Origin: Pseudo-nitzschia pungens
Taxonomy: Eukaryota; Bacillariophyta; Bacillariophyceae; Bacillariales; Bacillariaceae
Assembly (NCBI GenBank): GCA_037355855.1
Contig: CM074761.1
Location: forward strand, 2,685,346 to 2,749,345
Length of the DNA: 64,000 bases
Direction: 5' to 3'
Shown here in pieces: positions 13,986 through 37,260 of the stretch. Positions within the stretch are counted from its first letter, which is position 1. Every line of letters starts with the position of its first letter. Below the pieces are notes generated by a model. It had not been told where the DNA came from, searched no databases, and saw nothing but the letters and a program-made list of their open reading frames with translations. Made by a program: the position numbers and the translations under genes.

Positions 13986-14303
13986 CGTAACTATCGCGGT
14001 ATGGGCAGCATTGGCGCCATGGAGCGCGGCTCAAGCGATCCTTATTTCCATGAGTCGAGCTCCACCGACAAACTGATTCCCGAAGGAATCGAGGGACGTG
14101 TTTCCTACCATGCATCACTCGCTGCAAACGTGTTCCAGCTGATTGGCGGCCTCCGCAGTGGCATGGGGTACGTCGGCGCGCCGGACATTGACGCTCTACG
14201 AACCAAATCGAACTTTGTGCGAATTTCATCGGCAGGTCTTCGTGAAAGCCATTTGCACGACGTCATCGTCACCAGAGAAGCTCCTAACTGCGAAACGGTC
14301 TGA
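13986..14303 (+). pseudogene. guaB: IMP dehydrogenase, C-terminal fragment
   Basis: The frame reads [20 protein letters not shown], then [26 protein letters not shown] and [14 protein letters not shown], ending ...[12 protein letters not shown]. This is the last quarter or so of bacterial IMP dehydrogenase, the NAD-dependent step from IMP to XMP. It begins abruptly where host intergenic DNA stops, so the catalytic Cys loop and NAD site are missing. It is followed at once by guaA, the normal bacterial order. The fragment itself has no internal stop. Confidence 0.9.
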
Positions 14304-14525
14304 GCCCATTTCTGATCTCGCGCGCGGAATCTTTATTCTCGACTACGGAAGTCAGTACACGCTGCTCATCGCCCGCCGAATTCGGGAGTTGGGGGCATGC
14401 AGCGAAATTTGGCCCTGCAACGACCCTCGAGTGGCGGAATTGGATGCCCGCGGGGATAAGCCGCTCGGGATCATTCTCTCTGATGGCCCGAGCAGTGTGC
14501 ACATTGAGGGCGTACCGCAGTTGGA
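14304..14525 (+). pseudogene. guaA: GMP synthase, N-terminal glutaminase fragment
   Basis: Starts after the guaB stop and reads ILDYGSQYTLLIARRIREL, then PLGIILSDGPSSVHIEG, which are the opening motifs of the class I glutamine amidotransferase domain of GMP synthase. Only about 70 residues remain; the nucleophile Cys elbow, ATP-pyrophosphatase and dimerisation domains are absent. No clear start codon is visible, suggesting decay. At about 14525 the sequence switches to an unrelated gene on the other strand. Confidence 0.85.
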
Positions 14526-14529
14526 GACG

Positions 14530-15366
14530 AACGTGCTAACGGATGGGCCTGCCCGCGCTGCCGCCCCAACCCCCGGCGCGAACGCGAGCGAACCGGAGGG
14601 AGCACCGCCCAGTGACGGAAGCGAATCCGAAGGCTTCGACGTCCGATCCGGAAGTGATTTCGCATCCGGGGCCCTTTGCTTCGGCTTTTGATTCCGGAGC
14701 ACGAACCTCTGGTTTGGGTTGCGCAACCGGTACCTTCTGTTCGACGGTTGGCAGCCCTTCCCGGAGGTCTGTTTTAGGGACGTCGTTCTTGAGCTTTCGG
14801 CGAAACGCCTCCATGCGGTCTTTTCGGACCGCAGGCTTTTCGTTCTTTGGAGTGTCCGATTCAGGAGTCTTCGCAGCCGTTGGCTTCGCGAACGACTCAG
14901 GCACGCCGCCCTTTTTCTCAGACTACGAACCCGCTGGCGCTTTGATCGCCTCAAGCGGTCCAGTGAACCCTAGTGTCTCGGAGCGAGGTTTGCGTTTCTG
15001 CCCTTTCGCCAATGAATCGGCGAATACCTCCACCTCCTTGACCGGTTTCCATGGAACCGGAGTTTCATGCCAAACGTAGGTTTCATTGCCTAATTCGCCG
15101 GTTTCGTATCGACCTTTCAACACTTTAAGGTCGAATGGTCCGAAACCTTGACCGTTGAGGGAGTAGTGCCAGTTCGTTTGGGGTACGTCAGCCTTCGCAG
15201 ACGGTGCCTTTGGTGCAGACGCGCCAGTTCCCGCTGCAGGGGCAACGGCCGCTCTCACCGTAATAATGTGGCCGCAGCTCTTACACCGTACCTTGAGTGC
15301 TTTCCCGCGAATCTTCTCATCCGCGATGGAGTACTTTGTATTACAGGAGTCGCAATAAAACTTTAT
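14530..15366 (-). pseudogene. Zinc-ribbon/GYF-domain protein (AglZ/TonB-like N-terminus)
   Basis: The minus strand reads KFYCDSCNTKYSIADEKIRG and VRCKSCGHII, the MJ0042-type zinc ribbon (two C-x2-C pairs). An Ala/Pro linker and a GYF-like domain (WHYSLNGQGFGPF, YVWHE) follow, then a charged, Pro-rich region. This architecture is common in Myxococcota and relatives, often ahead of TonB-like domains. The expected start codon is ATA (15366-15364) where ATG belongs, and a TAG interrupts the frame at 14925-14923; the frame is otherwise open to 14536. The C-terminal part is lost at the junction with guaA. Confidence 0.8.
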
Positions 15367-15496
15367 GGACTGACTCGAGACCTTTCTAAAGGCTGAAAAC
15401 GGCGGAACCACACTATCCGCCTGCGGTCACTTCGGCAAGGGACCACGCGGCCTATTTACCACGTCGGGCACGCCATTTTTTAACCCCTAGAAGCGT

Positions 15497-16290
15497 CTAA
15501 ATTATTGCAAGAAGGAGTAGAATGATGCGTCCGGTAACCATCAATAAAAACGCTGTGTAACCGATAATATCACGTGCACGCAGTCCAATGATCCCAAATA
15601 ACGGCAGCGCCCAAAACGGTTGGAGCGTGTTTGTCCACGCATCGCCGTATGCGAGTGCCATGATAACCTTGGTGGGCGCGAGTCCAAGCTCGGAGATGCC
15701 TTGAAGCACAACCGGCCCTTGCACAGCCCATTGCCCACCACCGCTCGGAACGAAGAGATCAACGATCCCGGCCGAAACAAACGTCAGCAGCGGATAGGTC
15801 GTCGTGTTGAAAATTGAGACGAAGAGCTCCGACACGTAGACGATCAAACCGCTTGTCTTCGGGACGTCGAGGATGCCGAAATATAACGGGAATGGCAGAA
15901 TGATGCCAGCGCAGCCCTTCGTTCCATCCACAACCAACGGTTGCTGTCCAACTCATCTTCGACCTCGTCCGCATCGATAGGACCAGTGTACCCCGCCATC
16001 TCGGCCTCGTCGGCGGGCATCAGAGCGAAGAAGACCAGCGGGATTGCGATGATTAGACTTCCGGTAACCACGAGATTCAATGGCCCAAAAAGCGTCTCAG
16101 ACACGGGGATCACGCCAATTGCGCTTTCCAAAAAGTGGCTCGGTTTCGCGACTTTCAGTGGCGCAGACCCGCTCAGGCCCCCATGCCACACCATGAAGCC
16201 CGCGTAGCCGGCGGCACCCAGCAGATGGTAGTGAACCGCCCTACCCTCTTTTGCAAAGGCGCGCCCCATCTCCTGTGCCATGCTCTGGCC
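15497..16290 (-). pseudogene. atoE: Short-chain fatty acid transporter, internal deletion
   Basis: Two pieces of one membrane transporter. The upstream piece (about 16290-15945) has GFMVWHGGLSGSAPL, IGVIPVSETLF and a hydrophobic segment. The downstream piece (about 15935-15497) has FPLYFGILD, FVPSGGGQWAVQGP, ALAYGDAWTN and QPFWALPLFGI. These are AtoE-family signatures. About 100 residues expected between them are missing and the reading frame changes at the joint, so the gene has an internal deletion. It ends ...LLLLAII-stop. The N-terminal third is replaced by the neighbouring IPT protein. Confidence 0.85.
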
Positions 16291-17105
16291 CTCGGCCGGC
16301 GAAACAGCCCCGATTTCGAGCGTTTTCGTGTTAGCGTAGAGGAAGATGTCTTGAGCGATTGTGGCGTTTGCCGTGTTCTGAGCGCGAATATTAACGAGGC
16401 CTGCCGGGTGTGCGGGAATGGTCACCACAGCGCTCGTTCCGTCAGATGCGACCTTCTTCAGTGTCGCCGCTGCTCCGCCGAACTGAATTGTTATTCCTGG
16501 CTCAAACCCGCTTCCTTCGAGTGTCACGTCGATTCCACCGCCTGGTGGTCCAACTGCAGGATTCGCGTAGAGAATTTCGAGTCGATCGAAATAGGTTACA
16601 GCTTCGGAAACCACAGCCGTTGCGTCTCGATTGCTCGCACGCACATTGACTTTCCCGGCATCGCGCGGTGGTGCCAAGACGCGGAGAAGATTAGAGCTTG
16701 GGACGTTGTGGCGAAGCGCAGTTTCGCCACCGAAACTGATGCGGGTGTTTTCGTCGAAGCCGCGCACTGTGACGTCGACCTCGACGCCACCCACCGACGG
16801 GATGCGATCCGGCGCGACGGTGTCAACTTGGAGTGTGGCAACGTATTCGAACCCGCCGTCCAGACTTTCATCACCCAGAATCGGGTCAAAAACCTTTACG
16901 GTGACTGTCCCCGGGCCAGATGCGGCAGGGGTCTGACCAATGAGGGTTCCGTCCACCGAATCAACTTCTGCTTCAAACTCGCCGAAGAAGACTCGCGTGT
17001 CCACGCTGAACCCGGTTCCTTGGATGACAACTGGGGATCCGCCGTCCACCGGCCCGCGAGAAGGATTAACGCCAGTCAGCGACAGTATCGCTGGTCCCAT
17101 GTCTT
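16290..17105 (-). pseudogene. IPT/TIG-repeat surface protein fragment fused in frame to atoE
   Basis: About 270 residues with at least three Ig-like IPT/TIG repeats: VNPSRGPVDGGSPVVIQGTG, then IPSVGGVEVDVTVRGF, then NPAVGPPGGGIDVTLEGSGF. Such repeats are typical of secreted or surface proteins of deltaproteobacterial lineages. The frame runs without a stop straight into the atoE fragment, making a 418-codon chimeric ORF (17100-15844). I regard the fusion as a by-product of DNA joining. The N-terminus is cut at the clp junction. Confidence 0.75.
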
Positions 17106-17109
17106 CGTC

Positions 17110-17450
17110 GGGTGGGTTCCGTTCTCGTTCATCACCTGTAGCAGGATGTTGAAGACATCGGGGAGGGCTTTCTCAGCTTCATCGAAAAGCACCAAGCTGT
17201 AGGGCTTGGCGCGAACGGCCTCCGTCAAGATACCGCCTTGCTCACTGCTCACGTAACCACGCGCAGATCCGATAAGGGTGTTGACCTTGCTCTGCTCAAT
17301 GTACTCGGACATATCGGTAAGTACGAGCGAATCTTCGCTGTCGAAGAGGAACTCACTCAACGCTTTCGCGAGCTCAGTCTTACCTACGCCGGTTGGCCCG
17401 ACGAACATGAAGTTGCCGATCGGGCGACTTCGGTCCTGAAGACCGGCGCG
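17110..17450 (-). pseudogene. ClpA/ClpB AAA+ second ATPase domain fragment
   Basis: Reads [20 protein letters not shown] with Walker A, then [20 protein letters not shown], then [10 protein letters not shown] with Walker B and [12 protein letters not shown]. That is the D2 domain of a Clp-type unfoldase, from the P-loop to just after Walker B. About 100 residues survive. Both ends are abrupt; the distal end abuts the IPT fragment. ClpA versus ClpB cannot be decided from this piece. Confidence 0.8.
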
Positions 17451-17464
17451 CCAGCGCCAAATCG

Positions 17465-17915
17465 CCGTTCAAAGTGCTAACGGTTCGGGATGAAGCCCTC
17501 GTCGAACGCCCCACCGAGGATGAGATGTTAGAGAAACTAGTTTCGCACCCCAACGTGAAGACCATCAGCCTCAGTCCGCTGGCGGATGACGACACGCGGG
17601 CGTTGATTCGCGAAGCCTTGTATTTGGACGATCACTTGGCCGAAAAAATCGAGGGTTTTGAGCGGTGGAAATCCACTTTTTGCGGTCCAACTCATCGGCA
17701 ATCTAGTTGCGAAGCGACAGTTGCAGTTTTCATCTGCCGGGTTTTAGCTGCGCACCGGAACTAATCTCGAGATTCCGGACGATATTCATAGTCTTTGAAT
17801 GAGTCGTCTTACCGCGTACCCCCAGCTTTCAAACAGCCAGGTGGTGCAGTCACTGGAAGTCGCCGCAGCCTTGGGCGGGCACGTGGACATGGATGAATGG
17901 ACTGTCGTTTGTTCT
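17465..17915 (+). pseudogene. Kinase-associated predicted ATPase fragment
   Basis: Pieces in shifting frames read SHPNVKTISLSPLADDDTRA, then GNPLFAVQLIGNLVA, then TNLEIPDDIHSL, then ALGGHVDMDEW, resembling the AAA ATPase module found with bacterial Ser/Thr kinases or LuxR regulators. There is a frameshift near 17668, a TAG at 17745-17747, and a TGA at 17796-17798 where a Trp codon is expected. The family assignment is by general resemblance. Confidence 0.6.
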
Positions 17916-17924
17916 TTCTTGGAC

Positions 17925-18085
17925 ATATCGATTTCCCCAGCGGTGCGCCTCACCGTTACGACCGTCAAACAGCACGCTCCCCGACCAGTTCGGGAGACAC
18001 CTGCAATCTCAAACATCTCACGAATCTTGGGCTCAGGAGCACCGTCGAAGACTGGTGACGTGACCAGGCCCTCAGGGCGACGGAC
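17925..18085 (-). pseudogene. rpoB: RNA polymerase beta subunit, short internal fragment
   Basis: The minus strand reads RRPEGLVTSPVFDGAPEP, then IREMFEIAGVSRTGRGS, and after a one-base shift VLFDGRNGE. This matches the conserved C-terminal region of bacterial RpoB just before the MYMLKL segment. Only about 50 codons remain, wedged between an ATPase fragment and a kinase fragment on the opposite strand. A core gene reduced to 160 bp is strong evidence of DNA shattering. Confidence 0.7.
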
Positions 18086-18087
18086 GA

Positions 18088-18775
18088 ACAATGTCGGGAA
18101 CACTCTTCGGTACCCCCGCCTATATGTCACCCGAGCAATGCCTCGGTGCGACGGATACCGTAGGCCACATTCGGACATCCATTCGTCGGGTTGCATGCTC
18201 TACGAGATGCTCTGCGGACGCTTGCCCTTCGTGATGGAATCACCAGTCGACATGATTCGCGCGCACTTGGATGAGCCGATTCCTGCGGTGGTTCCGCGTC
18301 CGGGGCTGGGTGCACCTCAGGAGTTTTCGGACTTCGTGCCTCGCTGCCTCCAGAAAGACCCGGCGGATCGATATGAGAGTGGCCAGGCAGCGTTGGTCGC
18401 TCTCGCTCAAGCTTTCGAGCCCCATCGCAAGTCGGGTTATCAACCTCCGAGGTGATGCGGCAGCGAGCGACAGCGAGCGCTCCTCGAAAACAGGTCGATG
18501 TCAAGGTTCGGGGTAATCGTATTCGAGATGAGGCGATTGAACTGCCCACGACCGAGAAGCGGCAGAAGCTGGAACTGGAGCCACCTCAGATCGAGACGTT
18601 TTCACCACCCTCCGAGTCTCTATTCGAAACCCAAACTGAGGCAGATATCGGCGCGTCTGCACCTGTAACCAAGGTGAAAAAAGGGGATTCGGTGCCCTTG
18701 GCGTTACTCGGCCTCCTCTTGGTGGCCCTGCTCTGTATAGCTATCTTCTTCATTATCTATCAATCCATCATGGAT
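18088..18775 (+). pseudogene. Ser/Thr protein kinase C-lobe with TM segment
   Basis: Begins in the activation segment (GTPAYMSPEQCLGATD), shifts frame, and continues GCMLYEMLCGRLPF, then SDFVPRCLQKDPADRYES, the C-lobe of a bacterial eukaryotic-like kinase. A charged juxtamembrane region follows (18452 onward in another frame), then a TM helix, VPLALLGLLLVALLCIAIFF (near 18695-18754). The N-lobe and catalytic loop are missing. At least two frameshifts are needed to read it through. It joins an unrelated reverse-strand fragment at about 18775. Confidence 0.8.
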
Positions 18776-18777
18776 GG

Positions 18778-19205
18778 GTCAGCCTTCTGCGCGAAGGATT
18801 TCGATGGCTTCCGGAACATCGGCACCTGGTACCAATACCTTGACATCGCGAATTCCGACCAATCCACCCGTCACCACTCGTTTGATCCGCCCCACGCGGC
18901 CGAACGATGCGATGTCATTCTCAGCAAAAATCTCTCGAACAAGTTGCACCTCACCAAGAGATTTCGGGATCAACACAGTCCCCGCGAATCCATGTCGTTC
19001 GCGAAATCGTCGTTCGTCGCGAACATCACGAACCGATGCCTAGAAGAGCGGGGCAGCAACCCCGGCTGCTACAACGAGAATGCTCTCTGCGCGAACACCG
19101 GTCCAGAGCACCAGGTATCCCCGGACAGCGCTCCTGACCGAAGCATTCAGATACGCCCGCCGGTAGCGATGTCCGGCATCCAATCCCCTCAGATCCTCGT
19201 AGAAT
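18778..19205 (-). pseudogene. DUF2007-like/membrane protein fragment
   Basis: The minus strand reads LVREIFAENDIASFGRVG and VLVPGADVPEAIEILRAEG, resembling the small DUF2007 putative signal-transducing domain. In another frame upstream there is a hydrophobic stretch, YLVLWTGVRAESILVVAAGV. Frame changes and stops separate the two, so they may be one decayed gene or two fragments. Confidence 0.45.
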
Positions 19206-19530
19206 GAACGTCTAAGCATGGTCCGCTGTGCAGCCCTGTACAGCGCAACGTGAGCGAGGGCGAACGTGCCACCCGACTCGACATCTCAAAGAAATTCAGC
19301 TTAAGAAATCGCCCCGTTACCCGTAGAGCATGACAAAGGCTGCCCGCTGTTGGAGAAGGAACCGGCATTCGCCCTCCGCGATCGGCCACGATCCAGGCCT
19401 CCAATAGGACTTGAAAACTCACCGACCAGAGAAGCGTCGTCGTGCCTGACTTACGCACGCGTTGAATCTCGAGCGATGTCCCGTGGTCGTAGATTCCGAG
19501 GCGAGTGAATCGTCCAATAACTTCGTCCGG
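19206..19530 (-). other. Unassigned bacterial-type sequence
   Basis: GC-rich sequence continuing in frame from the exbD fragment. I recognise no family on either strand. It is probably another fragment of the mosaic. Confidence 0.4.
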
Positions 19531-19632
19531 GGTCACCATGAAAGTGATCAGAAGCACCAACATCACATCCACCATGGGCGTGACGTTAATTTCGGACATC
19601 ATCCCGCCCGGTTCGCCAATCTTGCCAGCCAT
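19530..19632 (-). pseudogene. exbD: ExbD/TolR N-terminal fragment
   Basis: Starts MAGKIGEPGGMMSEINVTPM with VDVMLVLLITFMVT, the signature N-terminal TM segment (including the conserved Asp) of the proton-channel subunit of Tol/Exb systems. After about 34 residues the sequence becomes unrelated, so the periplasmic domain is lost. The ATG at 19632 is 15 nt after the tolQ stop, the usual operon spacing. Confidence 0.85.
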
Positions 19633-19647
19633 CGGAGCTCCTTCTCG

Positions 19648-20373
19648 TTACTTAAAGAAGTGACGCTTCACGATGTTCAAGAAGTCATTGGAGAAGCTGT
19701 CCATCTCGGCGCTCATCCGTCGAATCTTGCTCACGTAGAAGTTGTAGGCGACACCGGCGGGAATGGCCGCAACCAAACCCACGGCTGTAACAATCAGCGC
19801 CTCAGCGATTGGACCAGCAACAACGTCGAGGCCCGCCGCACCGGCAGCGTTCACGAAGGCCACCATGATGCCTCATACGGTTCCGAAGAGCCCGATGAAC
19901 ACCGCATTTGAACCAACAGTCGCGAGGAAAGGCAACAGACTCTCGAGTTCGGTAACTTCGGAGATGATCGCGCGGTGAAGCGAGCATTCGACGTTTTCGA
20001 TACCACCCAGCTGATTATGCATCGTGTCGCAGTCGTTCTCGGAGTTCTTCAACTTGGAAATTTCGATGTACCTGGCTTTGAAAACCTGCGCGACAGGACT
20101 GCGGGTATACTGTTCCGCAGTCTGATAAATGGCGTCCAACCGCTCCGACTCCCAAAAGGCATCGAGGAATGTAGCCGTCTCGCTCCGAGCGCGTTTCAGG
20201 TAGAGCGCTTTGTATCCAATGATATACCAGGACACGACACTGAGGATGAGCAAAATCACCATCACGCCCATCACAACGCGACTTGGCTCCATGAGGATTT
20301 CGAGGACTCCGCGAGCCTTTCCTGGGGATTCAGCCTGTGCAGTCACCAATTGCACAAGAACTGTTTCAAACAT
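19648..20373 (-). pseudogene. tolQ: TolQ/ExbB proton channel, one nonsense codon
   Basis: From ATG at 20373 (MFETVLVQLV) to TAA at 19650-19648, about 241 residues, full family length. It has three hydrophobic segments, the ERLDAIYQTAEQ-type cytoplasmic region, and the MotA/TolQ/ExbB core LLPFLATVGSNAVFIGLFGT. The next codon is TGA (19875-19873) where the family has the Trp of GTVWGIM; the frame then resumes GIM-VAFVNAAGAAGLDVVA to the end. So the gene is full length with a single TGG-to-TGA change. It energises outer-membrane processes together with ExbD/TolR and TonB/TolA. Confidence 0.9.
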
Positions 20374-20409
20374 GTCTAGCCGTCCTTTGCTAACTGTGTT
20401 TTTTAGCAC

Positions 20410-20570
20410 CGAATCACAATCACGTTGCCTTCCTTAATAGCAACGGTCCCAGAGTCCACTCTCTGCGTTGCCAAGAATAACCGGTCGGGCTACCATGCCC
20501 GGACCACGTTTAACGCAGTAAAAGAATAGGCCGCTCGGCTTGCCCCCCACCCCACGACTCTGAAGGAAGG
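20410..20570 (-). other. Unassigned fragment upstream of tolQ
   Basis: The minus strand has KRGPGMVARPVILGNAE and, after a shift, VDSGTVAIKEGNVIVIRC-stop, which looks like the C-terminus of a bacterial protein. I do not recognise the family. Confidence 0.35.
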
Positions 20571-20574
20571 GTAG

Positions 20575-22298
20575 ATGGCAACGGACATCCGTGATCTCCA
20601 GCAACAATGGGACCAATCGCCCGCTGACGTAGAATTGTTCGCGTCCATCGAACTTCATTGCATCCAGTCCAACAACTGGAACGACCTCATCGGTTTATTC
20701 CGAAATGGCCGAAGTCATTTCATCGAAGACCCGACTTTCGGGGGCACGACTCGCAGGACAGTTGCGTGAAATGGAGGGGTCTATCGAAGACAAGAAGGAG
20801 CGTGGTGCGTTTCTTGTTGCCGTCGGCGATGCGTGCATGGAACAATCGCGACGAAGCCATGAAGGCCTATCAATCGTCATTCAAGGCCAATAAGCGGGAC
20901 ACCACCTTCCTTGACCGCGCTCGATCTACCGAAAAATAGGTAGTTGCGGCTTCTAAAAGACCCCGTCGCTCGCGCTGACGTATGCTGCGCAAAGCGCAGG
21001 TTCTCGGCGACGATATGCGCGACTTCGATCGTGCATTGGAAATGATCGATTCAGCCCTCTCAGCCGATCTCGATAGCGAAGTCGCCGCCGAACTCTTCGA
21101 ACTCTACGGTGAGAGCCACACGATTTTCGGTCTGATTCAAGACCTCGTGCGTGATGCCAAAGAAGCAGCGAGCAATGGTGATTCCAGCAACGCTGCGGAT
21201 CTGATGATCCAAGCGACGTTACTCGAGCGGTCCCGTGAAGCTGACTCCTTGATCCAAGCAACCGAATACGCCGAGATTGCTCACGGATACGACTCGTCGA
21301 AAGCAGACGCGAACGATTTGGTTGCAGAACTCTATGCCCTTACCGGACGTGAAGCCGAGCTTTCGGACGACGGTCAAACGGGTGTGGCCGTAGTCGGCGC
21401 GGTGGACGTTCACCATGAATCAGAAGTTGAGTCGTCGCCGGCGTTCAGCGAAGAGAGCGAGTACGAAGAGGACTCTGAAGTCCACAGCGGCAGCGACGAA
21501 CCAGAACCTAAATGCGAAGATGCTCAGGATGCTCCTGAGGAAGAGGTCCAGGAAGCGCACGAGGAGGCTCACGGGGAGGAGACGCACGAAGAGGAGGCTC
21601 ACGAAAAGGAGGCTTCAGTACCTCAGGACGACGAAGAGGACGAGGAAGAAATGGCCCAGACTCAAATTCTCGCCGCCATTTCGGGTTCACTGGACGAGTA
21701 TAAGTCCGTTCGTGCGAGCGACCCCACAAACGTCGCTGCCCTTCTCGGCTACGCGAACGTCTGCCGAAAAGAAGGTCACGTGGATCTCGCCATCGCGCAG
21801 CCCGAAGGCGTCATCAAGAAGCTCCTCAAAAAGGACGGCGAACTCAAAGTGATGGTCGAACTCGCCAACCTGTTCTGGAAAGAAAAAGAGGATTCATCCA
21901 AGGCTGATCACTACTTCAAGCGTGTGAAACTGCTCCACGCGACCGAACCCACGATGATCAGCTTTTACGAGGCCTATTACGAGGAAACCGACAAGTGGAA
22001 GAAACTCTTCCAGCTTGTTTCCTCGGCCCAGCAACATGCTAAGAGCGACGACAAACGTCTCGTCCTCACCGCTCGGCTCGCCGATATCGCTGAAAACAAC
22101 ATGGGCAATCCGGACAAGGCCATTGATGTCTGGAAGGGTTACGTTCGCTAACACGGGGCCAATGAGAAGACTTCCGACGGACTCCATCGTCTCTACAATG
22201 AGAAGTGGAGCATGCTCGTTGACCTCTACAAGGACGACCTGAGTAAACTCGATGACGAAGACTCAGAAGGACGTCTTTCTGTCCTGAAGAAGTTCGTC
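20575..22298 (+). pseudogene. Large TPR-repeat protein, N-terminal part
   Basis: Starts MATDIRDLQQQWDQSPADVE. It shows several TPR-like helical pairs in alternating frames (GAFLVAVGDACMEQ, DEAMKAYQSSFKANKRDTTF). From 20982 to 22151 a 389-codon frame is open, with DRALEMIDSAL, an acidic Glu/His linker of about 70 residues, and further TPRs such as NVAALLGYANVCRKEGHVDL and LTARLADIAENNMGNPDKAI. A stop after KGYVR is followed by continuing homologous sequence to about 22298, where it meets glmM head on. Very long TPR proteins of this sort are frequent in Bradymonadota/Myxococcota. Confidence 0.7.
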
Positions 22299-23220: not shown

Positions 23221-23352
23221 GTGGCCAGTAAGAATCAGGGCGAAACCCGAGCTCGCATTCTTCGAGCTCCAGACCGGAGATTCCCCTGAATTGGAGTTCG
23301 TGGGAGGCAAAGTGATGGGCGTCGAGCACAGACTGCTTGACGGCCCTATTTC

Positions 23353-24910: not shown

Positions 24911-24911
24911 A

Positions 24912-28239: not shown

Positions 28240-28800
28240 ATGGTGCTGTGTACCGGTATGAAGCTGGATTAGATGTTGGTTAGGGTGCTGGGCCTGGGCT
28301 GAACGAAACAAACCCGGATGTACGGATTGATGAACGCAGATCGATCGAACGATTTTAAAAACACCAGGATGTACGGATGGAATTCAAAGAAACCCGGATG
28401 TACGTTTAAGATTGAAAAACACCCGGATGTACGTTTAAGATTGAAAAACACCCGGATGTACGTTTAAGATTGAAAAACACCCGGATGTACGTTTAAGATT
28501 GAAAAACACCCGGATGTACGTTTAAGATTGAAAAACACCCGGATGTACCTTTAAAATTGAAAAACACCCGGATGTACCTTTAAAATTGAAAAACACCCGG
28601 ATGTACGGATCGATGGACGAAGATCGATTGAACGATTGTAAAAACACCCGGATGTACGGATGGAATTCAAAAAAACCCGGATGTACGGATCGACCTTACA
28701 AAATCCGGATATACGGATCGAACTTAAAGAACCCGGATATACGAACGAACCCGGATACACGGTACGGACCGAACGAATTAAAATTTTTAAAAAAGATACG
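28240..28800. repeat. 29-bp-period minisatellite inside astB
   Basis: From about 28308 to 28775, units beginning ACCCGGATGTACG recur. Seven central copies spaced 29 bp (28392, 28421, 28450, 28479, 28508, 28537, 28566) are nearly identical; outer copies diverge and carry GATCGATGGACGAAGATCG-type inserts. There are roughly 14 units in total. The tract separates the middle and C-terminal coding parts of astB, with about 20 astB codons missing at the joint. The ORFs crossing it are repeat-encoded. Confidence 0.9.
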
Positions 28801-29597
28801 GCCTCCAGAGGCCAACCAGATGCGCAAGATAGGTACGGACAGCTTCATTCTCTGCGCATTCTTGGGCGGAAATGAGGACCATGCCGTCCGCGGTCGTAAC
28901 GAGTTGTGAGTTGAAGAGGTAACTCTGGACGCGTCCTGAACGGATACCTGCGAGGCTGGCAAAATCACCTCGATTAGGCCCGCAATGCTTGCTCGTTAGC
29001 GAAGATGACGTGTTCGTTGGCGACCGTGATGACGTCGTGATGGAAGACGCCTTCATCGATAACTGCAGGATTTTGCTGAACACAAACCCAACGTTTCACA
29101 CCGTGCCGTCGTAGAAGAAGTTCAGACGTCTCCTTGGTTTGCCGCGCTGGAAACTTGGAGGGCTTACTGAAGGATGGATTGGTTGCGGATTCGCCAAAGA
29201 TCATAACCTCGACTCCCTCGGCCAGATGCGACTGAGAAAACCTCATGAAGTTAGCGGCCCCTTCCTCGCGAAAATCCCCGTGGCTCGGAAGGGCAAGGTC
29301 GTGGCGGAAGTGCGGCCCCTCCGGGAACATGGCAGCTAAGATTTGGCCGGTTGTGGGGTGTTCAATCCTTCGATGGAGTTTGTTGACCAAGTTTGAAGGC
29401 TTGAAATGTACCTTTCCATCAGTTGCGTCGGCGGACGCCGATACCGTCCCTGCGTTCGCAACCCTCATTGGCGAAGCCGAGGAAAATCGAGCCACCAAAG
29501 CGGGATTAAACGCAAACGCGCGTTCCAGAAGCTGAGCGTCGTCGCCGGTAAACCCCAACTTTCTCAGACCACGGACATATGGACGCTCGTGCGCTCT

Positions 29598-29867
29598 ATC
29601 GATTGTTTTGTCGATTAATCGATCGAAGACTTGGATGTTTCGGAAATTTCGATCGTTTCGTTCGATCGTTGTTTCTTTTTGCTTGTCAGGGTATCTATGT
29701 ATACCTGTTGTTTAGGATAAGGGATGTTTTGGATTCAGTACTGAGTTGGTTCTTTGTCTCTACTTTCAAGTGGACAGTTATTACTGTGTAACACTCTAGG
29801 GTATAATTAGGTGGAGTGATACGGGATAGAGGTATTTAAAGATGAATGATTATGAAAAATTGTGATG
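29598..29867. other. AT-rich insertion of about 270 bp inside astB
   Basis: AstB coding sequence stops after GLPQGLI (reading leftward, about 29868) and resumes at HERPY (about 29597). The intervening DNA is AT-rich, contains TCGATTAATCGATCGA and ATTTCGATCGTTTCG near one edge, and has no coding content. It resembles host non-coding DNA in composition. No target-site duplication or terminal inverted repeat is obvious, so its class (small non-autonomous element or filler) is open. Confidence 0.7.
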
Positions 29868-30048
29868 AGCCCCTGCGGCAGGCCGAGATCCGACAACGCT
29901 TTCATCTTAGCCAGCCCCTGAAGTGCCGCCGCTTTCGGTCTCGCGACGGTACCCATATTGGCTTTTGATGCGACATTGCCGAATGACAGGCCCGCATGAT
30001 TGTGCGTTTGCCCCACCAGGCCGTCAAAGTTCGCTTCCATGATTCATC

Positions 30049-30770
30049 CTAGAGCGAAAGTCGCTTGAATACACTCTCTGGTATCGCCTTGATGACGCCC
30101 ATGATTCCGCGCCAGAAGCGGGATAATAGAACTCATTCTCTCGTCTGCCCTGAGCCGCGTGGATGGCTATGCCAACGGATTCGGGGGACGCTATGGGGAT
30201 CGCTGTTTCCATCCCATAGGTCATGCGGGTGTCGACGAACCCGAGTTTCACGGTCATGACGTGAACGCCGTGATCAAAACACCGATTCCGAAGTCCTTAA
30301 AGGTACAGGCCGAATACACCCTTTGCGCTTCAGTAGAAATAGTTGCTCTTTCTTCTGCGGTCGCCCGCCACTATCAGTGAGCCAGCGCCTCGCTCAATCA
30401 TCCAATTTGCGACAGCCTCGCCTGTACTTGCTGCGCCTGTGTAGTTGACGTCGATGACCCGCTTTGCGCGTGAAAAATCTTCCTCGCTACCGCCTTGGTC
30501 CCCCATGTCCCCAAAAGCCACTAATGCAATCGTAATTGCGCCAACTGCGGACTCAACAGCATCGACAAATTTGGCGTGGTTATCGAAATCAAGGGCGTCG
30601 GAAGCGGCCAAAGCAGATTCAACGTCAAATCGGACACGAATGTCGGACTCGATGTTTTCTGCCTCTTCGGCGTTTCGCGCAGCGACGAACACGCTAAGGC
30701 CGTCAGCGGCGTATTGATCCGCGACTGCTCGCGCGATTGGGGAGGTTGCACCACGAATGAGAACGCTCAT
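30049..30770 (-). pseudogene. Short-chain dehydrogenase/reductase
   Basis: ATG at 30770 (MSVLIRGATSPIARAVADQY) with the nucleotide-binding G-x3-G-like turn, then LDFDNHAKFVDAVESA, VIDVNYTGAAS, and SLIVAGDRRRKSNYFY with the catalytic Tyr region. A TGA follows YFY, then SAKG and a frameshift. The continuation is HVMTVKLGFVDTRMTYGM and, after another shift, WRGIMGVIKAIP ending KRLSL-TAG at 30051-30049. Family length is conserved (about 240 residues). It sits 8 nt before astB and 65 bp after DUF934, all on one strand. The substrate is unknown. Confidence 0.85.
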
Positions 30771-30835
30771 GTTGTCTGCGTTTTGTGCGGAGACCTGTCA
30801 TATCTGGAACTCGTGTCGTATCGCAAGATGCTGCG

Positions 30836-31323
30836 TTAACGAGCCTGTCTAACTGGGCTACCGAAGCGACCCTGAAGGTAGACAGGTAGGTGTTGGTCCG
30901 CCGCCGTCTGGTAGTGATTGGTGAAATCATTGAACGCTTTCAGCGCGTCGTAGATGTCCTTGCCTTCCTTGACTTCGAACGCATTGATGCCGCAACGCGC
31001 CATGTAGGCGATTTGGTCTCTTCTCCCTTGAAACAGAAACGATCACACAGCAGGCGGGCCTTAGAATAGTTCCTTCCGTCCGCAAATTTTGGGAACTCCA
31101 CGACGATGAGATTGATGTCGTCCAAGTACGGAAGAATGCCCTCCAGTGAATCCTCTGGAGCTATTCTCACGCCGATCACGGCTCCCGACGCGAGAAGCGA
31201 GTTTCGATCGGCGAGAAACCTGGGAAGCGGAACCGTGAAACGAGAACCATCGTTGGCTTGCTCTTCATCAAGATGGCGCCAATCATCCTCGATAACAGCT
31301 TGGTTTTTGATGATCTTAGCCAT
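30836..31323 (-). pseudogene. DUF934 protein (sulfite-reduction associated)
   Basis: ATG at 31323 (MAKIIKNQAVIEDDW). It shows RFLADR, GVRIAPEDSLEGI, NLIVVEFPKFADGRNYSKAR and LLCDRFCFKGE; after a shift comes the C-terminal CGINAFEVKEGKDIYDALKA-type sequence, ending GRFGSPVRQAR-TAA. DUF934 genes habitually follow cysI; here the gap is 22 nt. The frame is broken once near 31030. The role in sulfite reduction is inferred from this conserved neighbourhood. Confidence 0.85.
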
Positions 31324-31345
31324 AGATGACCTCCTTGAATGGGTC

Positions 31346-31995
31346 TCATCCTAAGCGATGGTAATTGTCGAGGAAGCGTTCGCCGCCCTCGCGAACTTCC
31401 AGGTAGAAATCGGTTAGTTTTTTAATAGCGGGCGCGATGTCCTCTTTTGACAAGGCAGTGCCAAGCCACTTGCCGAGCGAGGCGTCATTCTCCGCCGATC
31501 CGCCCAACATGATCTGATAGTAGTCTTCGTCGTTTTGTTTACGCCGAGGATGCCTATATGGCCCACGTTGTGGTGCCCGCAGGCGTTGATGCAGCCGCTC
31601 ATTTCTACTTTGAGTTCCCCCAACCCATACTGATGCTCGAGGTCGTCTTTGTATATGTCGTCGATCGCCTTGGCGACTCTAAGAGACTTAGCGTTAGCAA
31701 GGGCGCAGAAGTCGATGCCGGGGCAGCAAATGAGGTCGGTTACCTTGCCAATATTGGGGGTGACCAGTTCCTTACGGTCGAGAGCCTCCCACAACGCGTA
31801 AGAGGTCTTTGTTCTCGATGTCTGCCAGAACTAGATTTTGGTCGTGAGTCGTCCGAATCTCTCCGAAGCTAAAAGCATCCGCCAAGTCGTCGACGTATTC
31901 AATTTGGTCGTCGGTCGCGTCACCGGGTGGGCGATACGATGATTTAAGCGATACGAACACCACGTTATAGCCGGGGACCTTGTGGTCGTGGACCT
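31346..31995 (-). pseudogene. cysI: Sulfite/nitrite reductase hemoprotein, C-terminal half
   Basis: Reads VFVSLKSSYRPPGDATDDQI, FSFGEIRTTHDQNLVLADI, then in another frame LVTPNIGKVTDLICCPG, DFCALANAKS and SGCINACGHHNVGHIG. The last segments hold the four Cys that bind the 4Fe-4S/siroheme centre. The C-terminus FYLEVREGGERFLDNYHRLG-TGA is intact. Frameshifts occur near 31790 and 31540. The upstream half is replaced by a lycopene cyclase fragment at about 31995. It catalyses six-electron reduction of sulfite to sulfide. Confidence 0.88.
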
Positions 31996-31999
31996 CGCA

Positions 32000-32778
32000 G
32001 CCGCGTCAAACGGAAGCGCGGCATCCCCGCAAGTCGGAAGACCAGCTCCCATGGGAATGACACAACATTCTTCCTCGATGACTTGGCGTACCGTGACACC
32101 TCTGTCGTCCAGTCTGCGATAAAGTCGGTCTTTCAAAGCGCCGATGGGGGTGGGAGGCCGTCCAACTAAGACTGTTTCTTCCAAGAACCAACGCGTTTCT
32201 GAGAGCTTCGTCGCATAGAGAAAGGTGTGTGGACCCATCCAGTCATCGTCCACGGGTCGGAAGTCCATGAGCCCCATTTCGCCCTCAATAGGGTTGCCTT
32301 CCATTTCGGCCAACATGCCATAGGCGGTCTGAAATCCGGGGGCAGCGTTGTGCCGTGTTGTGAGCGTGGAGTTTGCGCCCGTGCAGTCGAAGACCAGTGG
32401 CGCGATGATCTCACCTTTGCCTTTCATCTTCGCGCCCCACGCTGTGACTTCTACGATCTTGTGGGCGAATCGCGTGATACCGTAGTCGCCGCGCAGAAGC
32501 TCGGCCTTGAGCGCTTCCCCGTCGACTCGACCGTACACGCGATCGATTTGACGCACGCCGCGAGACGTAGCGACCAAAGGGACGTTCCACGTCCGCTCGA
32601 AGACTGCGTCGTTGAGATTCTCGGGGAGTCCGTCCGCCCAAAAGCCATAGTTGTTTGGTCTTGGGCGATCGATGTCGGGCGCAGCCCAAGCGACTTTCGG
32701 GCCCTCGCGAGAAAGTGGGGCGGCCAACGCGGTGCCAGCTGGGCCGGCACCAACGACAAGCGCGTTGAACTTGGGTTT
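32000..32778 (-). pseudogene. Lycopene cyclase-like flavoprotein, C-terminus missing
   Basis: ATG at 32778 (MKPKFNALVVGAGPAGTALA) with the FAD-binding GxGxxG, then RPNNYGFWADGL, YGRVDGEALKAEL, LVFDCTGANS, QTAYGMLAEMEG, MDFRPVDDDWMG, FLYATKL and EECCVIPMGAGLP. These are CrtL/CrtY-type cyclase motifs. About 260 codons are open without a stop, unusual in this block. It ends where HPATGY is expected and is joined to cysI. Diatoms also have a plastid-targeted cyclase; this copy lacks a targeting leader and introns and lies among bacterial genes, so bacterial origin is preferred. Confidence 0.8.
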
Positions 32779-32789
32779 CATGACTGGGA

Positions 32790-33409
32790 GCTGGCCGCCT
32801 TGTTCGGCTGCCAAAGACTTCTTCAACCCTTTGAGTCACTGCGGCCCATCGACTCCACACGAAGACTGCATCCAAGAGTCGATTGAGATAGGCTATGGAG
32901 TTCGAGTCAACGTCTTGCTCAGCTGCCAAGCCGACAACCAGACGCTCCGCGCGACGGCAGATGGTACGGCATTGGTGAAACTCAACGTTCAATCGGGAGC
33001 CGCCCGGAAGAACGAAGGAACGCAAAGGTGGGAGGTCTTTATTGAACTGGTCGATGCTAGCTTCCAAAGTGTCAATCTCGGCCTGCTTCACCCGCGGCAT
33101 GACTTCGCCCACATCTTCTTGGATGCACGCGAGGATACTACCTAGATCGAAAAGCTCATGCTACACACGGAAGAGCGTGTCGGCGAGCGATTGAAACAGG
33201 AATGGGTCGTCCATCTCGGCGATCGTTTGTGTGGCTGCGCCGACAAACGTTTTCAGCTCGTCGACGGTGCCATAAGACGCGATTCGCAGTTCGGACTTGG
33301 AGACCTTCTGGCCACCAACCAGGCTGGTTTGACCTTGGTCACGTTTCTTCGTGTAGACGCGGTTGATCGCGAGTTCTGGATCGCGAAATTCTTGTTCACT
33401 CATGTTCAT
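32790..33409 (-). pseudogene. PduO-type cob(I)alamin adenosyltransferase
   Basis: From MNMSEQEFRDPELAINRVYT (33409; a second ATG at 33403): KKRDQGQTSLVGGQKVSKSE, the ATP-binding N-terminal motif, then RIASYGTVDELKTFVG. After a frameshift near 33160 come GSILACIQEDVGE, LRSFVLPGGSRLNVEFHQCR, ICRRAERLVVGL and YLNRLLDAVFVWSRW. It transfers adenosyl from ATP to cobalamin. Full family length apart from a decayed end that overlaps the cyclase start region. It starts 18 nt after the preceding gene's stop. Confidence 0.88.
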
Positions 33410-33427
33410 TCTCCGGACGGATGTCCG

Positions 33428-33555
33428 TCATTCAGCGGGTTGTGGATACCACTCCAAGTAGGAGATCTCCACGCCCGAGTCCTTTGTAAGTGCTGTCAGC
33501 TTCTGAACTTCTTGACCTCGGTAGTGGTACGGAATCAGTAGCTTTGGCTTGCGGG
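33428..33555 (-). pseudogene. MBL-fold hydrolase C-terminal fragment (tentative)
   Basis: Reads KLLIPYHYRGQEVQKLTAL, then KDSGVEISYLEWYPQPAE-TGA, resembling the C-terminus of UlaG-like metallo-beta-lactamase-fold hydrolases. Only about 40 codons survive. The spacing to the adenosyltransferase start suggests a native operon neighbour. Confidence 0.5.
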
Positions 33556-33559
33556 GTGA

Positions 33560-33700
33560 ACGATAAGTTCGTGATAGTTCTTTTCGTCGTATTCGGAGGT
33601 CATCCAGAGGCCATCGATAAGCAGAGCGCGCCCATAGGCCTCCGTTTCGACCATCTCAACAGTTTGAAACTCAGAACGCCCACTGAAGTTCGTCTCTTTG
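33560..33700 (-). pseudogene. speE: Spermidine synthase N-terminal fragment
   Basis: Reads SEFQTVEMVETEAYGRALLI, then DGLWMTSEYDEKNYHELIVH, matching the N-terminal strand region and start of the catalytic domain of bacterial polyamine aminopropyltransferases. About 45 codons remain; the methyltransferase-like GGGDGG motif is absent. A junction with a different reading frame follows at about 33558. Confidence 0.65.
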
Positions 33701-33985
33701 ACTCGGAGCCCAAACCGGACGACACGCTCGACAACGATTGTGATGGTTTCGCAGACGAGTACGACACGGACTGTGTCGGTAAGGTGGGCGTTCCGTTCAT
33801 CATTTTTGCAACTGCCGGGAGATTTTCCGGAGATCTGAGAGGAATTTCAGGCGTCCATGGCATTTGCCAGACGGACGCTCAGAGTTACGCGACCGATTAC
33901 GACCCCCAAATGACTTGGAGAGCTGTCCTTTCGACAGACAGTGATGATGCGAGAGACCTCTTCGTTCACAATCGACCGGTCCGAG
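33700..33985 (+). pseudogene. MopE-like plus DUF1554 (LenA-type) protein fragment
   Basis: DTLDNDCDGFADEYDTDC is the Asp/Asn/Cys repeat of MopE-like surface proteins of Myxococcota. It is followed by FIIFATAGRFSGDLRGISGV, then GICQTDAQSY, TWRAVLSTDSDDARDLF, the DUF1554 fold. The piece is open but truncated at both ends. Confidence 0.7.
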
Positions 33986-34178
33986 GTGCAAAAACTCGAA
34001 GCACGGTCGCTATCGCCGGGGAGTCTGCCCCCCAAGCTTCCATCTCGAATCGCTCCTCGGCTGTCGCACGTACGCCGTCGACGATACTCAACGCGCCTGC
34101 GCTCTTAGCAACCGCGGAGATATGCTTGGCGTCCGCCAAAACCCCGGTAGGAGTATCGACGTGTATTTTCGCTTTGTT
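33985..34178 (-). pseudogene. Class V aminotransferase fragment
   Basis: Reads AKIHVDTPTGVLADAKHISA, then AKSAGALSIVDGVRATAEER, the PLP-binding S/H-x-E-T-S-T-G and SLVVDGV region of Ala-glyoxylate/Ser-pyruvate aminotransferases. It is joined in frame to the DUF1552 fragment. The PLP lysine is not reached. Confidence 0.7.
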
Positions 34179-34179
34179 C

Positions 34180-34428
34180 ACTTCGAACGGGTTCAGGATA
34201 TTCGAGAGCTTGAAGCCCGTCGGCAACATGCCGGCGGTGGGCCAGAACGAGTCCTGTTTGGTGCCGTTCGAATGGTAGAAATAAATGAATCGCTTAGGGA
34301 ATCCGTCCGCCGTGATAATGCCGGGCATCGCATCGGCTGGGACATTCTTCGTTAGCCCAAGTTCCAAGAGTGGAAACGCGATGGCTGATCCGGCGATTCC
34401 TCGCGGAAGCTTCTTCGCGTAAGTCGCA
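34180..34428 (-). pseudogene. DUF1552 protein, N-terminal fragment
   Basis: Starts ATG CGA CTT ACG with MRLTRRSF, then after a one-base shift RGIAGSAIAFPLLEL (a Tat-like leader), and PKRFIYFYHSNGTKQDSFWP and GFKLSNILNPFEVNK. DUF1552 proteins are exported proteins of unknown function whose genes follow DUF1588/1585 genes; that neighbour is present here. Confidence 0.75.
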
Positions 34429-34433
34429 TTATT

Positions 34434-34728
34434 TAGCCTCCTGCTCGAGTTGGACTGTTCGGAACCGGAACGAATCCGAGGTCGCGATTGCGACGAGTAG
34501 GTTTTCAAAGTTGCCTGCGGCGCTGAACACGGTCCGCACGTGGTCGGCGGAGCACATGTCGGCCGTTCTGGGCGACCCATGGCGAACGTGAACCAATGAT
34601 TGGCCACACAGTCTTCCACTTCGTCCGCGTTTGCGAGCTGCTTAGATAGCTCGACACCGCCGACGAAATCGCCCTGGATATCACGGTCTACCCGACACTC
34701 AAAAGGAAGAATGTCATCGTTCGCTTAC
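34434..34728 (-). pseudogene. DUF1588/DUF1585 protein, C-terminal fragment
   Basis: Reads [39 protein letters not shown], then in another frame CSADHVRTVFSAAGNFENLL, VAIATSDSFRFRTVQLEQEA-stop. This matches the C-terminal domains of the planctomycete/myxobacterial DUF1592-1588-1585 proteins. The stop (TAA) is three bases before the DUF1552 ATG, an operonic arrangement. Confidence 0.75.
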
Positions 34729-35754
34729 GATGAGCGGCAGCACCATTGGTACTCAGACTTACATGAGCCCGGAACAAGCTGCCGGGGAAAACGTAGACGC
34801 CACGACGGACCTCTACACGCTTGGCATCATCATGTACGAGATGCTAAATGAACGACCGCCGTTCCACCACAAGGACCCGGTCAAAGCAATTCGGGCTCAG
34901 ATCTTTGACGAGGTACCTCCATTCCGAAAGAGCGCGCTTAACGGCGGTCTCCTCGACCGCGTCATTCAAAAGGCGCTCGAAAAAGAAAGAGCAGCGAGAT
35001 TCCAGACAGCAAATGAGTTCCTCTTGGCTCTGGCCGGCGAGCCCGCTGCGCGCCCGCTGGTCAGAGGCCTGGACCTACGGGCCTTGGAGGAACCCTCAAC
35101 GCATGAGTTCGAGCCCGGCCCGGACACGGCCGATATCGAGATACCAGAGGAGGAACGTGGCGCGTTCATGCAGACCCTCCAGTTTGCCCAACGTGTTGAG
35201 GCGCCACCATCCAATGGGGAAGACGACGACATCATCCCATTCGACGCGGTCGGCGAAAGCGCCCCCCGTGAGAAGGAAGCCGTTAGGAGGAATCACACGG
35301 AGCAGTCCGGCCTCAATGCTGCAACACTTCCCGGATCGAGCATGGAAGTTAGCTCGCCTTCGGCGCCTTCGGCGTTGTCGATTTTGACCGTAATCGCGCC
35401 TACTGAGCAAGCCGACGAGGACGTCATCCTACTTACCACGCCGAAACAAGTTTCCGACTCGGGGGTCCGCGTTCCTGCGCAACGGCTGGAGACTGGCGAC
35501 CACTTCGTCGAACCGACCACGGACGACCAACCCAAGCCCCCAAAACGGGTGAATCGATTCCTGACGAATTGGGTCACGATGACGGCGACGACGAAGTCGA
35601 GACTGACAACGCTTGGACATGTGAAGAAGTTCTCGCCAGTGAGGCGTCATCCCCCACGCATCCCGCAAAGGGCCGCGGCGGTGTCATCTTCGTTCTCCTA
35701 ATTCTGATTCTGGCTCTACTTTACGGGAATCTGGCTTCGCTGCTTGGCGGTTGA
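34728..35754 (+). pseudogene. Second Ser/Thr kinase C-lobe with C-terminal TM
   Basis: Begins in the activation segment ([14 protein letters not shown]), then [20 protein letters not shown] and [19 protein letters not shown] 200-residue acidic, low-complexity cytoplasmic region follows, open over 800 bp. After a frameshift near 35560 it ends [20 protein letters not shown] before TGA. The N-lobe is missing, cut at almost the same motif as the kinase at 18088. The two kinases are different genes. Confidence 0.8.
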
Positions 35755-36870
35755 CCTTTACGCCGACCGTGTAGACCCCGCACTCTGTGCCCGCCGCGGG
35801 CTTCAAACTCAAGTCGTAGACACCGCGCGGCAAATCCACTCGAATCGTACGTTTGCCCTTCACCACCGGCTCTTGGACGATCGCTGCACCGGTAGCATCA
35901 GAGACGGCAGCCTTCAGCGTCGCGGACGTATCAATCACAATGTCGACGGGTAAGAACTCGCCGGGCCCCGCGTCTACCGCGAATTGAAACTGATCCACTT
36001 CTTTCGCGCTCCCGAACACCCCACGGCGCTCGGTTTCAAGCGCATCGGCGTCATCAAAACTGTCATTAGGTTCACCTTCAAACCCTTCGATCTCGTCCGT
36101 GGAACTCAAATTCACCAGGTATTCCACCGCGGGTCCGGGATTGTCCGCGACCTCAACAGCGTTAACCCAGAGTTCCAACTCGCCTGGTTTGAAGGAGAAC
36201 TCGCACGATGCAATGGAACCATCCAAACCCGGCGTTAGCTTTGTCTCCAACGCAGGTTTCGACAGCGTCGCCCCAATCTTGATACCCTCTCTCGCGGGTT
36301 TGACATCCAACAGTAGAACGGGGTCTGAAGCGGTTTTGGAACGAAGCTCAAGCGTTGACAGAACGGTCTCGTTTGCGCCCATATCGGGGCTGCCCAAATC
36401 GACGAGCGCCGTGACAGCGTCCACCTTCGCCGGCGGAAGACCGGCGTCTTGCATCACCCCTGCATCGCGCCCAAGGTCGTTATTGGCCGCTTCGTCCAGT
36501 GCGATGCCCAACACAAAGCGGTCGACGTCTGCGGTGGAATGAAGAAACCCGCGTATCCTCGAAGGCACAGCAACCCGTGTCATTCGGCTCAAGTTCAAGA
36601 TCGGCAGCGGCGTCGTTCGTCTCTCGGAACCCAATGATATAACAAGATTTCCGGTCGTAACCTTTTCCTGCAGTGAGGACCATCCAAAGCGTTTGAACCT
36701 CTTGGGGAACGCGGAGGTTTGGAATTGAGACCACCTCACCCAACTGTCCCGGGACTTGCATGGTAAAAAGAGGTTTCTCCACCCAGACCATCGAATACCG
36801 AATTTGTTGAAGTTCTAGATTTTGTGCGACTTCGTTGCGTCGGTTTTCGCTCATTGTTGTACTGCGTTCA
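35755..36870 (-). pseudogene. Secreted PPC-domain protein
   Basis: The minus strand has EGEPNDSFDDADALETERRG with EVDQFQFAVDAG, and farther upstream DLELEPNDTG with TADVDRFVLGIALDEAANN, two bacterial pre-peptidase C-terminal-type (EPNDS) modules. KRTIRVDLPRGVYDLSLKP and GVYTVGVKV follow. A frameshift near 36540 divides it; 350 codons are open below it. Probably secreted or periplasmic; no enzymatic domain is seen. Confidence 0.7.
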
Positions 36871-37023
36871 GCGTCTATGTGTTGTCTAGATTCCGGGGTA
36901 CATCCGTTGGACGGCGGATAGGTTGCTTCGGATATAATCCCGAAGCGATGGTCGATCGATCTTGCTGTTATGGCGAGGATCGACGGGTAGAGGTAGCTCG
37001 ACGATTGCGGCCGAGCCAAGCCC

Positions 37024-37260
37024 TCATTTCGCGACTTCGTAGTTGAATCCCTCAAGCGCTTTGGTCGTGGCCGTGCCATTCGGGAGTTCTACGAACACAA
37101 CAACGGTATCGTCGCCTTGGGCGATCGCGCTTCGATGCACGTACTCTAGCACGTCGAGTTTGGCTTCGATGGGGAACGGGCGAAGTACGAAAAAGATGCT
37201 TTTGGCAGTTGGGGACTTCATCGATGCTCGTCTGTATTGTGCAGCTCTGGGGTAACGCAT
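37024..37260 (-). other. Unassigned ORF at the right edge of the island
   Basis: The minus strand reads KSIFFVLRPFPIEAKLDVLE, then DDTVVVFVELPNGTATTKAL, ending FNYEVAK-stop. I do not recognise it. It may be the last bacterial fragment or host DNA; sequence to the right is AT-richer and host-like. Confidence 0.35.

Follow-up and report, generated by a model that had tools for sequence, protein, structure and literature searches.

Bacterial gene pieces in the block

The window analysed here, a stretch of 64,000 nt at C4:2,685,346-2,749,345, belongs to a genome of 66.9 Mb in 28 contigs, in which contig C4 spans 6.58 Mb. At C4:2.70-2.72 Mb, the window contains a 23-kb block that, judging from its sequence, is a real patchwork of broken and decaying bacterial genes (Table 1). 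The GC content of the block is 0.551, or 0.557 once two embedded host stretches are subtracted, compared with 0.446 over the 8 kb to its left and 0.441 over the 6 kb to its right; beyond that, the average over the rest of the window is 0.479, with individual 2-kb segments reaching 0.54. A high-GC block between host genes is thereby confirmed; an earlier interpretation made from the letters of the DNA (hereafter, the sequence-only reading) had placed the bacterial fragments between intact host genes. The left edge is sharp, with residue 383 of the 488 guaB residues (Escherichia coli numbering) beginning at 13,986. The right edge was placed at approximately 37,250-37,400 from composition only, and the last family match in the block ends near 35,032.

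Open reading frames (ORFs) of at least 70 amino acids (aa) over positions 13,000-38,500 numbered 190, and 50 of those in the block were searched against Pfam and/or NCBIfam. Matches at E<=1e-3 were obtained for 28 of the 50, yielding 24 bacterial gene pieces, 8 on the plus and 16 on the minus strand, consistent with the at least 20 fragments in both orientations counted by the sequence-only reading. Three further pieces (AAA ATPase, lipoprotein and rpoB), recognized by eye or weakly, stand outside this count; the ORFs overlapping the first and the last of them (17411-17761 and 17789-18199, respectively) had no Pfam match. Nearly all pieces score below the NCBIfam full-length cut-offs because they are fragments, and the TPR, NIR_SIR and aminotransferase matches are also under the Pfam cut-offs. 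The receiver part of the response regulator was recognized by eye, as was a possible extension of the GltJ-like piece to 14539 in another frame. Between the two parts of the AtoE-type transporter, approximately 93 residues are gone and the frame is altered. The claim that core genes are present only as pieces holds for guaB and glmM and fails for the nearly complete tolQ, and the rpoB match amounts to 28 residues with E=0.059. Two further genes, cobO and the interrupted astB (residues 5-443 of 447), are likewise close to full length.

The block has decayed through stops, frame changes and deletions. Across approximately 5.7 kb of alignable genes, there are 7 in-frame stops (1 each in tolQ, the YaeI-like gene and cobO, and 2 each in glmM and the response regulator) and 7 frame changes (3 in astB, 2 in glmM, and 1 each in the AtoE-type and YaeI-like genes). 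Given that one glmM stop, in the N-terminal part, falls within a weakly aligned stretch, the number of lesions is at least 13. The tolQ stop occupies a position that is Trp in E. coli. The block has no evident function and would have decayed as neutral DNA. The alternative that selection maintains part of the block as expressed, domesticated products of horizontal gene transfer draws on four open frames of 334-390 aa (20979-22148, 31834-32835, 34646-35698 and 35687-36814) and the 442-aa fused TIG/AtoE frame. However, those frames that match a family are cut short or fused, and stops or frame changes occur in most of the pieces that were aligned, so that we regard domestication as extremely improbable.

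Table 1. Features at the locus, in window coordinates
Feature	Position	Strand	Evidence or remark
Whole bacterial-derived block	13980..37290, right edge approximate		GC shift; left edge at guaB residue 383; right edge from composition and ORF 37027-37287 only
guaB, C-terminal piece, residues 383-483/488	13986..14288	+	59% identity, E=4e-34; PF00478 6e-30
guaA, N-terminal piece, residues 10-79/525, downstream of guaB	14329..14547	+	48% identity; NF000848 5e-14
GltJ-like piece, zinc ribbon and GYF_2	14926..15426, matched ~15028-15360	-	PF13717 6e-13, PF14237 3e-12, NF033761 3e-21
AtoE-type short-chain fatty acid transporter, residues 119-207 and 301-439 of 440	15503..16269	-	PF02667 2e-42
TIG-repeat protein piece, in-frame fusion to transporter piece	16300..17082	-	PF01833 2e-31; NF058597 6e-14
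clpB piece, model positions 580-693/853	17124..17465	-	TIGR03346 1.8e-52; PF07724 9e-39
AAA-ATPase-like piece, stops and frame changes	17470..17940	+	by eye, six-frame translation
Possible rpoB piece, 28 residues	17981..18064	-	36% identity, E=0.059; by eye
Ser/Thr kinase, C-terminal part (kinase 1)	18165..18431	+	NF033483 2.5e-16; PF00069 4e-8
tolR, N-terminal piece, residues 12-35	19531..19602	-	58% identity; TIGR02801 1.7e-9
tolQ, residues 6-222/230, one in-frame TGA	19654..20307	-	alignment; sole PF01618 match genome-wide
TPR protein, open frame of 390 aa	20979..22148	+	PF13432 6e-4, under Pfam cut-off
glmM, residues 67-354/445, two frame changes and in-frame stops	22399..23256	-	alignment; TIGR01455 7e-47
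MYXO-CTERM sorting tail	23356..23451	-	TIGR03901 31.4 bits, cut-off 20
Lipoprotein-like N-terminal piece	24405..24893	+	by eye on translation; no Pfam match at E<=0.05
Response regulator followed by histidine kinase; regulator with two in-frame stops	24930..26797	+	PF00486 5e-12, PF00672 4e-4, PF02518 2e-14
YaeI-like phosphoesterase, one stop and one frame change	27240..27783	+	NF008460 5e-7 and 8e-7, two frames
astB, residues 5-62, 65-344 and 359-443 of 447, two host interruptions	27973..30037	-	PF04996 4e-71 and 1e-25
Host stretch in astB, 570 bp: internal piece of host repeat with 29-bp satellite	28230..28799		copies on C1, C4, C5, C7, C9, C14, C17
Host stretch in astB, ~272 bp: internal piece of retrotransposon-like leader	29592..29864	-	mostly 80-91% identity, copies on 7 host contigs
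SDR oxidoreductase piece	30333..30770	-	PF00106 9e-15; NF005489 4e-33
DUF934 piece, positions 1-51/107	31021..31173	-	PF06073 3e-12
Sulfite/nitrite reductase 4Fe-4S domain piece, cysI-like	31349..31743	-	PF01077 6.5e-6, and 2.4e-4 in second frame; both under Pfam cut-off
Lycopene cyclase piece, 3-265/380	31996..32760	-	PF05834 2e-42
Cob(I)alamin adenosyltransferase (cobO), near complete, one in-frame stop	32843..33358	-	PF01923; TIGR00636
PSD2 and HXXSHH pieces, then class V aminotransferase piece, one frame	34020..34667	-	PF07624 6e-7, PF07586 0.002, PF00266 3e-4
Second Ser/Thr kinase piece (kinase 2)	34718..35032	+	NF033483 6e-25
Open frame of 376 aa, bacterial-like codon pattern, no family	35687..36814	-	ORF list; family search
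Lanthionine synthetase C-like host gene	56426-57748	+	E=1.5e-49

Host DNA within astB

The three parts of astB follow one another in order along the minus strand between 30,037 and 27,973, as determined by tblastn with E. coli AstB, and the same layout was recovered with five further relatives as queries. Two stretches within this gene, and thus within the block, are host rather than bacterial DNA. The first, the piece of approximately 272 bp lying between residues 62 and 65, matches a dispersed host repeat, whereas the 570-bp piece between residues 344 and 359 derives from the repeat carrying the 29-bp satellite, one copy of which lies approximately 4 kb from the end of contig C1. In the fetched copies, the satellite-bearing repeat extends past the part inserted in astB in all 6 at the start and in 4 of 6 at the end. 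The leader is followed by an ATG (ATGGCAGG) in 12 of 17 aligned genomic copies, and at another locus (L067) an ORF with a comparable start is immediately preceded by a more divergent copy (73%) and followed by a reverse-transcriptase/integrase-like ORF; by eye, this looks like a Ty3/gypsy-type element. Both host repeats continue beyond the parts found in astB, which are therefore internal pieces, and insertion of a whole mobile element was rejected as their source since both begin and end within longer host repeats. A separate locus with a copy of the leader repeat (L068) encodes, at 153-4019 on the plus strand, a 1288-aa open frame that by eye resembles a reverse transcriptase of non-long-terminal-repeat retrotransposons.

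The host pieces interrupt a collinear astB, a layout that requires the bacterial gene to have been part of host nuclear DNA beforehand. The nuclear location proposed by the sequence-only reading is supported by these pieces and by the length of the contig. The host itself appears to be diatom-like: chlorophyll a/b-binding proteins (PF00504) are matched 72 times in the genome and silicon transporters (PF03842; best E=4e-232) 11 times, as expected of a diatom or another silicifying alga. The block is flanked by a glucosidase II beta-like host gene on the left (7,670-9,763) and by LRR, SET and LanC-like host genes on the right. Thus, foreign DNA lies in a chromosomal contig with nuclear DNA on either side, the arrangement that characterizes insertions of the type of nuclear mitochondrial and plastid DNA (numts and nupts), and host and bacterial DNA appear to be physically continuous here.

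The host pieces in astB also bear on the possibility that bacterial reads or proximity-ligation concatemers were misbuilt into a host contig. Indels and mixed gene order are what low-quality contaminant reads or concatemers would produce, but host repeats within a collinear astB are hard to account for by contamination or a chimeric assembly. Moreover, two long host frames in the flanks, of 698 and 680 aa and both matched in Pfam, are open, making a general indel error unlikely. Four families typical of bacteria (PF01618, PF00440, PF00593 and PF00158) were searched genome-wide. PF01618, found in 8 of 14 control genomes, had a single match, the tolQ of the block. No match was obtained in the genome for PF00440, found in 13 of the 14 controls, or for PF00593, found in only 3 of the 14. 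PF00158 had two matches outside the block, at 31.5 and 24.3 bits, above the cut-off of 20.2. The block tolQ is the only clear bacterial match among these families genome-wide.

Proximity ligation was also assessed through six restriction motifs in 31-bp windows around 12 joint positions, several of them approximate. The numbers of joints with a motif were 1 for GATC, 1 for GANTC, 2 for CATG, 1 for TTAA, 1 for CTNAG and 0 for AAGCTT, the respective chance rates per position being 0.11, 0.15, 0.10, 0.05, 0.08 and 0.005. A Hi-C/Pore-C proximity-ligation artefact was rejected as no motif was enriched at these joints, approximate positions included. Taken with the host pieces, the open flanking ORFs and the family searches, this makes a chimera or contaminant a very unlikely explanation of the block. 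A search of the same genome with 33,900-37,700 for sister inserts returned only the block itself. A search with 13986-33985, in which 39 of 723 candidates were scored, gave only two host repeats among the matches listed, the block itself being absent as well.

Joints, donor and origin of the mosaic

Several neighbouring genes have stayed together: guaB-guaA, tolQ-tolR, cysI-DUF934, response regulator-histidine kinase and PSD2-HXXSHH, all of which are common operon partners. Local bacterial order is thus kept inside fragments, in five pairs, as the sequence-only reading had it. At the joints, unrelated genes meet inside their coding regions. The guaA piece can be traced to residue ~79 and is followed by the GltJ-like gene on the opposite strand; the TIG repeats continue in frame into residue ~119 of the AtoE-type transporter at 16,269; position 44 of HXXSHH continues into position 146 of the aminotransferase at ~34,160; and lycopene cyclase and cysI form another such fusion. 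The other halves of guaA, guaB, glmM and AtoE were not found in the window by tblastn with the whole E. coli proteins. The mid-coding fusions of unrelated genes on both strands are best accounted for if many pieces were joined at their ends. The proposal of capture and random end joining therefore stands as the account that best suits the fusions and the mixed orientations, the joining itself being what we infer.

One or a few long bacterial segments might instead have entered in collinear form, with inversions and deletions breaking them up on site afterwards. Possibly long runs, at 24,930-30,037 (regulator, kinase, phosphoesterase and astB) and on the minus strand at 30,333-33,358, would suit such a history; nevertheless, with the four mid-gene fusions and the missing halves set against them, we consider it unlikely.

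The donor looks Myxococcota-like. The pointers are the MYXO-CTERM tail, the N-terminal part of the GltJ-like piece and the TIG/CoaZ repeats, families which we take to be tied to Myxococcota or relatives; the Myxococcota/Bradymonadota assignment in the sequence-only reading is retained as far as these signatures reach. The gene content also fits its description of a free-living type of bacterium and, with MYXO-CTERM, GltJ-like, astB, tolQR and AtoE-type genes, points away from an organelle. Comparison of the astB piece with genome contigs yielded 5 distant relatives at 42-47% identity, the best from Bdellovibrionales and the others from two Phycisphaerales-type metagenome-assembled genomes (MAGs), a Legionella MAG and an alphaproteobacterial MAG. 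In the genomes of these five, tolQ had a match in 3, the best long match being at 36%. Among 290 genomes from the phylum of the first astB relative, 277 had a tolQ match, with a best score of 104 bits at 42% identity. None of the matches listed from these genomes exceeded 44% identity, and that phylum is therefore unlikely to hold a near donor.

Taken together, we consider it likely that the block arose as a real and old insertion into the nuclear genome, in which Myxococcota-like bacterial pieces were end-joined at a chromosome break, decayed and later captured host pieces. Under this scenario, DNA pieces of a Myxococcota-like, gene-rich bacterium of free-living type would have reached the nucleus and been joined end to end, in both orientations, by non-homologous end joining at a chromosome break. 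The insertion would then have accumulated its stops, frame changes and deletions as neutral DNA, and later breaks within the inserted astB would have been healed by capture of the short host-repeat pieces. The narrower proposal that the nucleus of the diatom stitched many sheared pieces of environmental Myxococcota-like DNA together at one site, in one end-joining burst, is somewhat favoured.

Several observations weigh against this interpretation. The joints were placed from gene truncation, and some neighbours, such as the regulator, kinase, phosphoesterase and astB, may have the same order in the donor. Neither the guaB nor the guaA piece is decayed. Microhomology is a hallmark of end joining; at 2 of the 4 host/astB joints, at most 1-2 bases could be assigned to either side. 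Furthermore, codon usage differs between the left and right halves, a difference reached by 3 of 1000 random gene-level splits of 22 pieces and persisting (0-4 of 400 splits) after up to three pieces are dropped. This test does not support the claim of a single bacterial genome as the source, and two donors or two ages are possible.

The codon difference, together with the arrival of the host pieces after that of the bacterial DNA, would suit a stepwise history, with DNA captured again and again at a site prone to breakage, perhaps from more than one bacterium. However, the GC content at third codon positions is similar across the 22 pieces (0.55-0.71). In addition, the left pieces are mostly core and the right pieces mostly accessory genes, a difference that, within one donor, may explain the codon result. 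Stepwise growth is accordingly judged the less probable history, though one to be taken seriously beside the single burst.

Relation to known insertions and other observations

The closest published parallel may be the mosaic organelle insertions of plants, in which microhomology or blunt-end signatures occur at 1,128 of 3,206 mitochondria-plastid junctions (PMC6215612). Like the complex or mosaic numts and nupts of that source, the block combines several fragments in one nuclear locus and subsequent mutational decay. It differs in having a non-organelle bacterium as its apparent source, 24 gene pieces in 23 kb, and host repeats captured inside.

The repair of double-strand breaks can also capture short ectopic host sequences as filler DNA. 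Both astB insertions are similarly short and of host origin, but here the break would have occurred within foreign DNA that was already chromosomal.

Inserts from endosymbionts other than Wolbachia are likewise known in animal nuclei. For Wolbachia-type inserts, PMC2647948 describes bacterial DNA in an animal nuclear chromosome that is often thought to be decaying. Such donors live within the host, whereas the gene content of the block suggests a gene-rich environmental bacterium with a large genome. In diatoms, Frail et al. reportedly found, in 2025, fragments of the Epithemia diazoplast in the nucleus as non-contiguous pieces, which would resemble the present case in placing bacterial fragments in a diatom nucleus. 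The donor there is a cyanobacterial endosymbiont, in contrast to the MYXO-CTERM/GltJ-type genes of the block. The assembly of Epithemia pelagica comprises 60.3 Mb in 21 scaffolds (PMC11167328), compared with the 66.9 Mb in 28 contigs of the host. Full-text literature searches, judged by titles and abstract openings and with most subscription papers outside their range, turned up no description of a comparable mosaic derived from a bacterium that is not a symbiont.

If the proposed origin is correct, the mosaic would be a non-functional by-product of contact with bacteria and would show how gene transfer begins, in raw form and ahead of selection. Transfer from bacteria to eukaryotes is usually known from surviving genes only, and how the DNA enters has to be guessed; in a mosaic that is decayed and apparently unselected, entry itself would be recorded, with many pieces arriving, being joined and eroding. 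It would also imply that genuine parts of chromosomes may be lost to filters that strip stretches resembling bacterial DNA. The presence of host repeats in a bacterial gene would provide an internal test that helps to separate insertion from contamination without reads.

Several features elsewhere in the window and genome were noted. The same 300-bp sequence occurs as identical direct repeats at 1-300 and 5896-6195 of the window, and between the two copies, at ~3400-5200, lies a CGATCGATCAATA-type array with 13-bp spacing. An open frame of 985 aa at 50978-53935 on the plus strand contains five repeat units 228-288 bp apart and has no Pfam match. A divergent RPB2-like gene is present in several equal-scoring copies at 4.79-5.20 Mb of contig C7 and on the small contigs C23 and C25-C28, in both orientations, with frames of up to 1478 aa, some of them broken; these copies are possibly viral. 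Finally, the first 685 positions of contig C1 (L070, 1-685) hold a CCCCAACAACCCCAAC-type repeat whose period is 15 and which may be a telomere of unusual kind.

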